Under the pieces are notes generated by a model. That model was not told where the DNA came from, searched no databases, and saw nothing but the letters and a program-made list of their open reading frames with translations. Of a stretch of DNA of 33,678 nt, positions 10,670-20,885 are shown in pieces. The stretch is from Thermoplasmatota archaeon. Its GTDB lineage: Archaea > Thermoplasmatota > E2 > DHVEG-1. The position numbers were made by a program, and so were the translations under genes. Positions within the stretch are counted from its first letter, which is position 1; each line of letters opens with the position of its first letter. The stretch spans positions 1-33,678 of the forward strand of contig JAFGPP010000005.1 of assembly GCA_016936135.1 (NCBI GenBank), written 5' to 3'.

Positions 10670-10736
10670 GGCGGAGAGATGGGATTGCAAGTACGTTCGA
10701 CTAAATTTTTTTGTGACGGTGTTTAACACCTCCGCC
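10670..10736 (+). ncRNA. Candidate structured RNA or thrS leader element (67 nt, closed by a perfect 7-bp stem)
   Basis: GGCGGAG (10670-10676) pairs with CTCCGCC (10730-10736); internal GGTGT-TTA-ACACC hairpin at 10718-10730 competes or coaxially stacks; C-rich 3' end CACCTCCGCCGCCTCCCCC. Confidence 0.4.
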
Positions 10737-10804
10737 GCCTCCCCCAATAGACTGATAACATTATCTTTAAAAACGGCTAATTTGTTTACGGGAGTCGAGT
10801 CTAT

Positions 10805-19955: not shown

Positions 19956-20122
19956 CTTTCGTTTTATTTTAAGATTAATATTAAATATTTCATTATTTAA
20001 ATTTTCTTTACATTTCTTACCTAAAAATGATTTCTTGGACCTATCAATCTAAAAAAATCATGATAATTTAGATGCATATACGTATGCACAATTATCTGCG
20101 AAAAAAACACTTAAATCTATCG

Positions 20123-20130
20123 TATATTAA
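20123..20130 (+). promoter_or_regulatory. Putative TATA box of the intergenic structured RNA upstream of the HD gene
   Basis: TATATTAA; expected TSS about 22-25 nt downstream falls on the GGGAAGGA stem at 20148. Confidence 0.35.
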
Positions 20131-20147
20131 TAGTTTATGGATATTTC

Positions 20148-20222
20148 GGGAAGGAAAGGCAATAAGTTTTGAATTTAGAGAGCCCATCCAAATTTCCCTC
20201 TAAATCACCTCTTCTCCTTCCC
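20148..20222 (+). ncRNA. Candidate structured sRNA (75 nt core, perfect 8-bp terminal stem plus 8-bp inner stem)
   Basis: GGGAAGGA (20148-20155) pairs with TCCTTCCC (20215-20222); ATTTAGAG (20173-20180) pairs with CTCTAAAT (20198-20205); U-rich tract TGATTTTTTCTTATTTT downstream near 20263-20279. Confidence 0.45.
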
Positions 20223-20351
20223 TTTATTCCAAATGTAATCAATCTGTGGTATTTTATAATGTTGATTTTTTCTTATTTTAAGGATTTACAATCCTGGCAA
20301 CAATATTAATAACAGCATTTTTTATTACAAACTCAATTTCGGGGGTCTTAT

Positions 20352-20885
20352 ATGGTTTCGACAAATGATATCAAAACTTGCTTTTCGGAAGAGCTTCAAT
20401 GGATCAAGAGCAGTGACATAAAAGAAAAAATAATTGCTGTTTGGCAAAAGGCTACAGAGAAAGGTGGATGGAATAAGCTTGATGAAGTACCATTCACGCT
20501 TCTTTTTGAAAATTCTGGGAAACTTACCGATCATACAAGGAGAGTAACACATCTTGTTAAAGCTGTAATGGATCTAAGAGAAGAACCATTGAATAAGGAT
20601 TATCTAATTGCCGGGGCCCTGTTACATGACGTAGGAAAAATGCTTGAATATGACAGAGTTGATGGAAAAATTGTCAAGGGAAAATTTGGGCAGAAATTCC
20701 GACATCCGGTATCGGGAGCTAAACTTGCCTGGCAGTGTGGTGTCCCAGATGAAATTGTTCACATTATTTATTCTCACTCTCACGAAGGGGACAAAACTGA
20801 ACGTTCACCTGAAGCATTTATTGTGCATCACTGTGATTTTATTGATTTTGAAATCAAAAAATCTCAAAAAATGGAGTCTAAATAA
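20352..20885 (+). CDS. HD-domain phosphohydrolase
   Basis: HTRRVTHLVKAV ... AGALLHDVGKMLEYD ... HPVSGAKLA ... IYSHSHEGD ... HCDFIDFE: complete HD metal-binding motif set. Confidence 0.85.
   Translation: MVSTNDIKTCFSEELQWIKSSDIKEKIIAVWQKATEKGGWNKLDEVPFTLLFENSGKLTDHTRRVTHLVKAVMDLREEPLNKDYLIAGALLHDVGKMLEYDRVDGKIVKGKFGQKFRHPVSGAKLAWQCGVPDEIVHIIYSHSHEGDKTERSPEAFIVHHCDFIDFEIKKSQKMESK

Follow-up and report, generated by a model that had tools for sequence, protein, structure and literature searches.

The window analyzed here, a stretch of 33,678 nucleotides, is contig 40 of a 1.71-Mb genome assembled in 153 contigs. The element studied, which we call F1, lies upstream of a gene for an HD-domain protein. 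The named relatives of this gene are found in Thermoplasmata/Thermoplasmatota MAGs such as SM1-50 and B44_G15, which we take to belong to the MBG-D/DHVEG-1 lineage; therefore, the promoter logic must be archaeal. ARAGORN detected no tRNA or tmRNA gene in the window. F1 was also ruled out as a known RNA, since no Rfam 15 family matched it above the gathering threshold. The region is organized as follows (F2 is a second type of RNA, described below):

20070 to 20096, plus strand: conserved upstream element TGCATATACGTATGCACAATTATC, kept in nine aligned homologues and preceding F1 and F2 genes
20097 to 20115, plus strand: core promoter TGCGAAAAAAACACTTAAA, BRE/TATA-like, with the pattern TGCGAAAAN6TTAAA
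20123 to 20130, plus strand: TATATTAA, the promoter proposed in an earlier note on this DNA; present, without conservation in the homologue alignment
20140 to 20275, plus strand: predicted F1 sRNA transcript, based on conservation and structure (both ends predicted, from the location of the TATA element and of the T-tract, respectively)
20148 to 20155, plus strand: 5′ strand of stem P1, GGGAAGGA, read from the sequence
20173 to 20180, plus strand: 5′ strand of stem P2, ATTTAGAG, read from the sequence
20183 to 20189, plus strand: loop motif CCCATCC, invariant in alignments and also present in F2 RNAs
20198 to 20205, plus strand: 3′ strand of P2, CTCTAAAT, pairing perfectly with ATTTAGAG
20204 to 20211, plus strand: anti-Shine-Dalgarno-like segment ATCACCTC, mostly unpaired in the predicted fold and kept in most F1 members
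20215 to 20222, plus strand: 3′ strand of P1, TCCTTCCC, pairing perfectly with GGGAAGGA
20263 to 20279, plus strand: T-rich tract TGATTTTTTCTTATTTT, a probable oligo(dT) terminator judged from the sequence
20352 to 20885, plus strand: HD-domain protein gene (PF01966), the downstream neighbor of F1, outside the RNA

Direct reading of the sequence confirmed the positions that the earlier note had given for TATATTAA, for the two 8-bp stems, and for the T-tract. As the F1 promoter, TATATTAA was ruled out, since it is not conserved among the aligned homologues; the conserved TGCGAAAAN6TTAAA element ends 8 nt upstream of it. The family consensus of the upstream element is TGCAnA..TACATAnTCAnC. The transcription start site (TSS) had been equated with the first base of the stem, but archaeal TATA-to-TSS spacing predicts a start at approximately 20140, about 8 nt 5′ of the stem. 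The AUCACCUC segment of F1 is identical in its letters to what we take to be the 3′ end of archaeal 16S rRNA, the anti-Shine-Dalgarno tail.

Folding of the single sequence gave no significant support for a structured RNA: the minimum free energy of positions 20130 to 20300 had a z score of −0.62, and 50 of 200 shuffles folded equally well. Of 419 segments of 160 nt on the same contig, 5 contain a perfect 8-bp stem nested within another. In the single sequence, the features of F1 are at chance level, and what exceeds chance is their conservation. These ordinary statistics would suit a chance inverted repeat without any gene, an explanation that is hardly credible given the family-wide conservation, the compensatory changes, and the conserved promoter described below.

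Conservation and genomic context of F1

A blastn comparison of the intergenic region with related loci revealed approximately 155 nt at 70 to 72% identity upstream of HD genes in several genomes, at differing distances from HD. In the alignment, the promoter block CTGCGAAAAAnnCACTTAAA is strongly conserved and is followed by a variable spacer and then by GGGAAGGR...UUUAGAG..ACCCAUCC..CCCUCUAAAUCACCUC..CCYUCCC. All nine homologues found first fold singly with a long outer helix, and nearly all of them also form the inner helix with the C-rich loop. T-runs are present 3′ of the stem in homologues, at variable distance.

A covariance model was built on the RNA part only, with the promoter left out. 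It matched 27 of 45 family genomes at an E value of ≤0.05, with one site each, and 17 of them at E < 1e-8. The promoter was found upstream of every strong match, sometimes with single-base changes, and also upstream of most weak matches (L132, L133, L137, L138, and L139; diverged in L131). Three weak matches without it (L134 to L136) are probably false. In seven genomes from two other families of the order, the model detected no F1 at E ≤ 0.01, and no F1 match was obtained in phage records.

The nested stems are kept among the homologues, and compensatory changes were detected in both. In the alignment, which was fitted to the model and in which the 3′ strand of a divergent subgroup is misplaced, 83.0% of the cells were paired, compared with 79.2% after shuffling and 55 to 68% in slid versions. 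Furthermore, 21 cells were changed on both sides, compared with 10.4 in shuffled alignments, and none of 500 shuffles reached the score. The 12-pair P1 helix was paired in 83.6% of the cells, with both-sided changes at six pairs; the corresponding values for P2, which is broken in L121, L126, and L128, were 81.9% and three pairs. In the divergent subgroup, AGGAAGGGAAGAA...TTCTTCCTTCCT forms an outer helix that differs in sequence but pairs perfectly or nearly so, and the members of this subgroup retain just the stem and C-rich tracts.

The gene neighborhood of F1 varies. F1 is located behind carB in 10 genomes, before HD in 9, and beside a P0002-type protein in others, while in the divergent subgroup it lies behind a Nog1-like GTPase (except for HD, these names were assigned by eye). 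F1 thus lies upstream of HD in the window and in nine genomes, but the link to the HD/citrate-lyase operon that had been proposed is not general. This position upstream of HD would fit an operon leader that acts in cis, or a riboswitch. Such a role is nevertheless very unlikely: the distance to HD ranges from approximately 100 to at least 480 nt or several kilobases, HD can be on another contig, T-runs are located between the F1 stem and HD, and F1 is also found behind carB or the Nog1-like GTPase, ahead of other genes. Because its neighbors differ between genomes, F1 is not the leader of one operon. The varied neighbors, the family-wide conservation, and the conserved promoter of its own all argue for the autonomous small RNA gene proposed in the earlier note.

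F2 RNAs and their complementarity to ftsZ leaders

The TGCGAAAAN6TTAAA pattern occurs at approximately 72 sites in 38 of 44 family genomes, compared with approximately 13 sites for the reversed control. On reading, the sites proved to belong to F1-type RNAs, to approximately 33 RNAs of the F2 type, and, in one genus, to diversified copies resembling F1; a few were coding matches. Nearly all noncoding sites lie ahead of an F1- or F2-type RNA. The spacing from TTAAA to the stem is approximately 30 to 33 nt in most F1 members. The genome studied here contains F1 (in the window), F2b (C48:9918), F2a (C120:2112), and an F2 with an ordinary promoter (C71:6095). Genus g7 carries several F1-like copies (L149 to L151, L216 to L219, and L221), and g12 has a similar one (L165); the copies have the same promoter and a CTAGGAAGGGA/TCCCTCCTAG stem and differ in their inner sequences.

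F2 has the architecture GGAAGG..GGCUGGUAGUU..GAGUGCAUCCCAUCCC..CCAGCC..CCUUC followed by a T-tract, and its loop, UGCAUCCCAUCCC, is invariant. An F2 covariation model matched 192 of 390 Thermoplasmatota genomes, from dozens of families, at E ≤ 1e-3. Among 22 diverse members, 96.1% of the cells were paired and 27 were changed on both sides, compared with 7.6 after shuffling (0 of 500 shuffles). No Rfam 15 family matches F2. Cross-model searches between F1 and F2 gave weak scores, with a best E value of 0.024 in one direction and no match in the reverse direction. F1 and F2 have in common the promoter, a purine/pyrimidine closing stem, and CCCAUCC, and they may well be of common descent. Viral contigs L521, L523, and L525 carry an F2-like hairpin with a GAGTGCATCCCATCCC loop (E values of 4e-6 to 9e-6), perhaps as viral mimics of the sRNA.

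In each of the 12 genomes tested, sites complementary to the F2 loop with at most one mismatch were more numerous than those of the reversed control. The exact 13-mer complement of the loop was present in 30 of 30 genomes, compared with 0 for the reversed control. Outside the F2 genes, the exact sites fall into leaders or intergenic stretches, mostly ftsZ leaders. A second exact site is absent from some F2-carrying genomes, and therefore the F2 target set may differ between lineages. The start regions in general were bound by the C-rich F2 loop no better than by shuffles, and thus the specific 13-nt complement matters rather than composition.

In four genomes (G000, G034, G001, and G006), the ftsZ leader has the order GGGATGGGATGCA, hairpin, (A)AACTACCAG, AGGAGG, and start codon. 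Both invariant F2 segments have their complement in this leader, arranged antiparallel, and cofolding yields gains of −24, −22.5, −26, and −11.6 kcal/mol, respectively. The downstream gene is ftsZ (PF00091 and PF12327). The exact 13-mer marks leaders of ftsZ or FtsZ-like genes in G000, G009, G019, G020, and G027 from the same family and in G039, G045, G099, G131, G204, G210, G234, and G356 from elsewhere. The exact loop complement is found in ftsZ leaders of at least 13 genomes in eight families, often with the second matching segment. Pairing beyond the 13-mer was better for the genomes' own leaders than for swapped pairs (exact P = 0.006; P = 0.03 in an energy-based version), a signal that comes mainly from two clades, in which CCCCUCCUA occurs with UAGGAGGGG and CCCUUCUGAC with GUCAGAAGGG. 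By this complementarity, F2 looks like a trans-acting antisense RNA directed at division genes.

Across Thermoplasmatota, GGGATGGGATGCA is located just upstream of the Shine-Dalgarno sequence in ftsZ leaders, often together with a second F2 match. These leaders are G000:C61:7518-7530 (L361), L341, L359, L360, L411 to L415, L417, L420, L421, L424 to L426, and L429.

The 13-mer is also found before smc or smc-like genes in G131 and G259 and, in G259, where a ribbon-helix-helix regulator gene begins (L427 in G131; L430 and L431 in G259). Leader genes beyond the Pfam scan were identified by reading their protein sequences. The occurrence of the 13-mer at smc-like and ribbon-helix-helix genes suggests a cell cycle regulon. 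In addition, EarA-like small regulator genes, so assigned by PF07381 in one related protein, have the loop complement in their leaders and carry GGATGGGATGCA across the start codon (L327, L331, L334, L348, L363, L371, L377, and L379).

We also observed further conserved intergenic structured RNAs with GGGACGGGATGCA or GGATGGGATGCA (L330, L367, L373, and L376 as well as L324, L326, L332, L342, L364, and L369), the closing stems of which end in CUCCCCC or GUCCCCC. They are possible F2 sponges. An element at 10.67 kb (window positions 10670 to 10760), which the earlier note had likened to F1, contains AGATGGGATTGCA, ends in CTCCCCCAA, and resembles these possible sponge RNAs. The gene downstream of this element encodes a product that, by eye, begins like archaeal threonyl-tRNA synthetase. 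No convincing homologue of it was found among the related loci compared.

Possible function of F1

The genome samples used comprised approximately 400 kb of G034 and approximately 310 kb of the genome studied here. In G034, the F1 segment AAAATTCACCTCTTC, the equivalent of ATCACCTC, bound start regions better than all 25 shuffles. In the genome studied here, the best matches of the anti-Shine-Dalgarno-like segment are at Shine-Dalgarno positions. The F1 loop complement GGTAATTGGATGGGT has no exact extra site in ten genomes; at up to two mismatches, it gave 51 sites, including the ten F1 genes, compared with 27 for the reversed control. The 400 kb of G034 contain six TTTTGAGGGAG sites matching the 3′ strand of P2, four of them in leaders of secreted proteins. 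This candidate was rejected, because the T/A variant in the leaders does not track the F1 allele (20:5 versus 15:6). No specific F1 target survived the loop-complement and TTTTGAGGGAG-leader tests.

The invariance of CCCAUCC, together with the lack of an exact complementary site for the full loop elsewhere in ten genomes, and the retention of only the stem and C-rich tracts in divergent members could also be explained if F1 were a structured RNA that binds a protein via its C-rich loop, as a decoy or scaffold, and does not pair with mRNA. We regard this as unlikely, since ftsZ leaders contain clear antisense sites for the coregulated F2 and F1 itself has an anti-Shine-Dalgarno-like segment. 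Even less probable is that F1 lacks targets of its own and instead regulates the F2 RNAs (as a competitor or sponge) or shares the GGAUGGG leaders with them as sites of action. The two RNAs do have the promoter and the CCCAUCC core in common, and the core matches, as its complement, the GGAUGGG stretch within the F2 sites; however, they share just approximately 7 nt, and no long F1-F2 or F1-ftsZ pairing was observed.

We consider it probable that positions 20140 to approximately 20275 of the window are a stand-alone small noncoding RNA gene, F1, acting in trans together with F2. According to this explanation, F1 would be transcribed from approximately 20140, end at the T-tract, and display the C-rich single-stranded segments CCCAUCC and AUCACCUC. 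These segments would pair in trans with G-rich mRNA start regions, and the pairing would block or tune translation, alongside the F2 RNAs. In an anti-Shine-Dalgarno mode, the partner mRNAs would have GAGGTGAT start regions. We infer a mode of action similar to that of F2 because the promoter, the closing-stem style, and the CCCAUCC loop are common to both. F1 is probably part of an RNA control system not yet described.

More tentatively, F1, F2a, and F2b might be coregulated, related sRNAs with a common origin in an ancient sRNA of the Thermoplasmatota, one pairing with ftsZ, smc, and archaellum-regulator-like leaders. This would be a form of RNA-based cell cycle control in archaea of which some viruses may be carriers. 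If true, the phylum-wide F2 with its covarying ftsZ site would be a rare archaeal sRNA whose likely target and mode of action can be read from genomes. Posttranscriptional control of archaeal cell division would become open to direct testing, also in those members of the phylum that are in culture, and F1 would illustrate the way in which one such RNA may give rise to a lineage-specific set with a single type of promoter.

Comparison with known systems

Bacterial sRNAs acting on ftsZ and archaeal base-pairing sRNAs are already known. In the part of the open-access literature that was covered, we found nothing relevant on sRNAs in Thermoplasmatota and no relevant paper in which the F2 loop sequence is printed. 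Nor did we find a description there of an archaeal sRNA that spans a phylum, has a conserved pairing site in ftsZ, and is accompanied, within one family, by a second sRNA with a dedicated promoter. In Methanosarcina mazei, the intergenic sRNA162 is reported to use two distinct domains to target cis- and trans-encoded mRNAs (PMC3510493); F1 and F2 differ from it in lineage and targets, and no Rfam family matches either of them. Sibling sRNAs in one genome have been described in Neisseria meningitidis (PMC5362039). F1, F2a, and F2b are likewise a set per genome, although Neisseria is bacterial and no homology is implied.

The work-alike of F2 is DicF, an Escherichia coli small RNA acting on ftsZ mRNA and cell division (PMC5069750); StfZ is another bacterial small RNA acting on ftsZ (PMC9628754). 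Like DicF, F2 would act on ftsZ, to whose translation start region it is complementary; for F1, no such ftsZ pairing was observed. No sequence relation to DicF was found, as neither F1 nor F2 has an Rfam match. DicF is located on a defective prophage of a bacterium, whereas F2 is chromosomal and distributed across an archaeal phylum.
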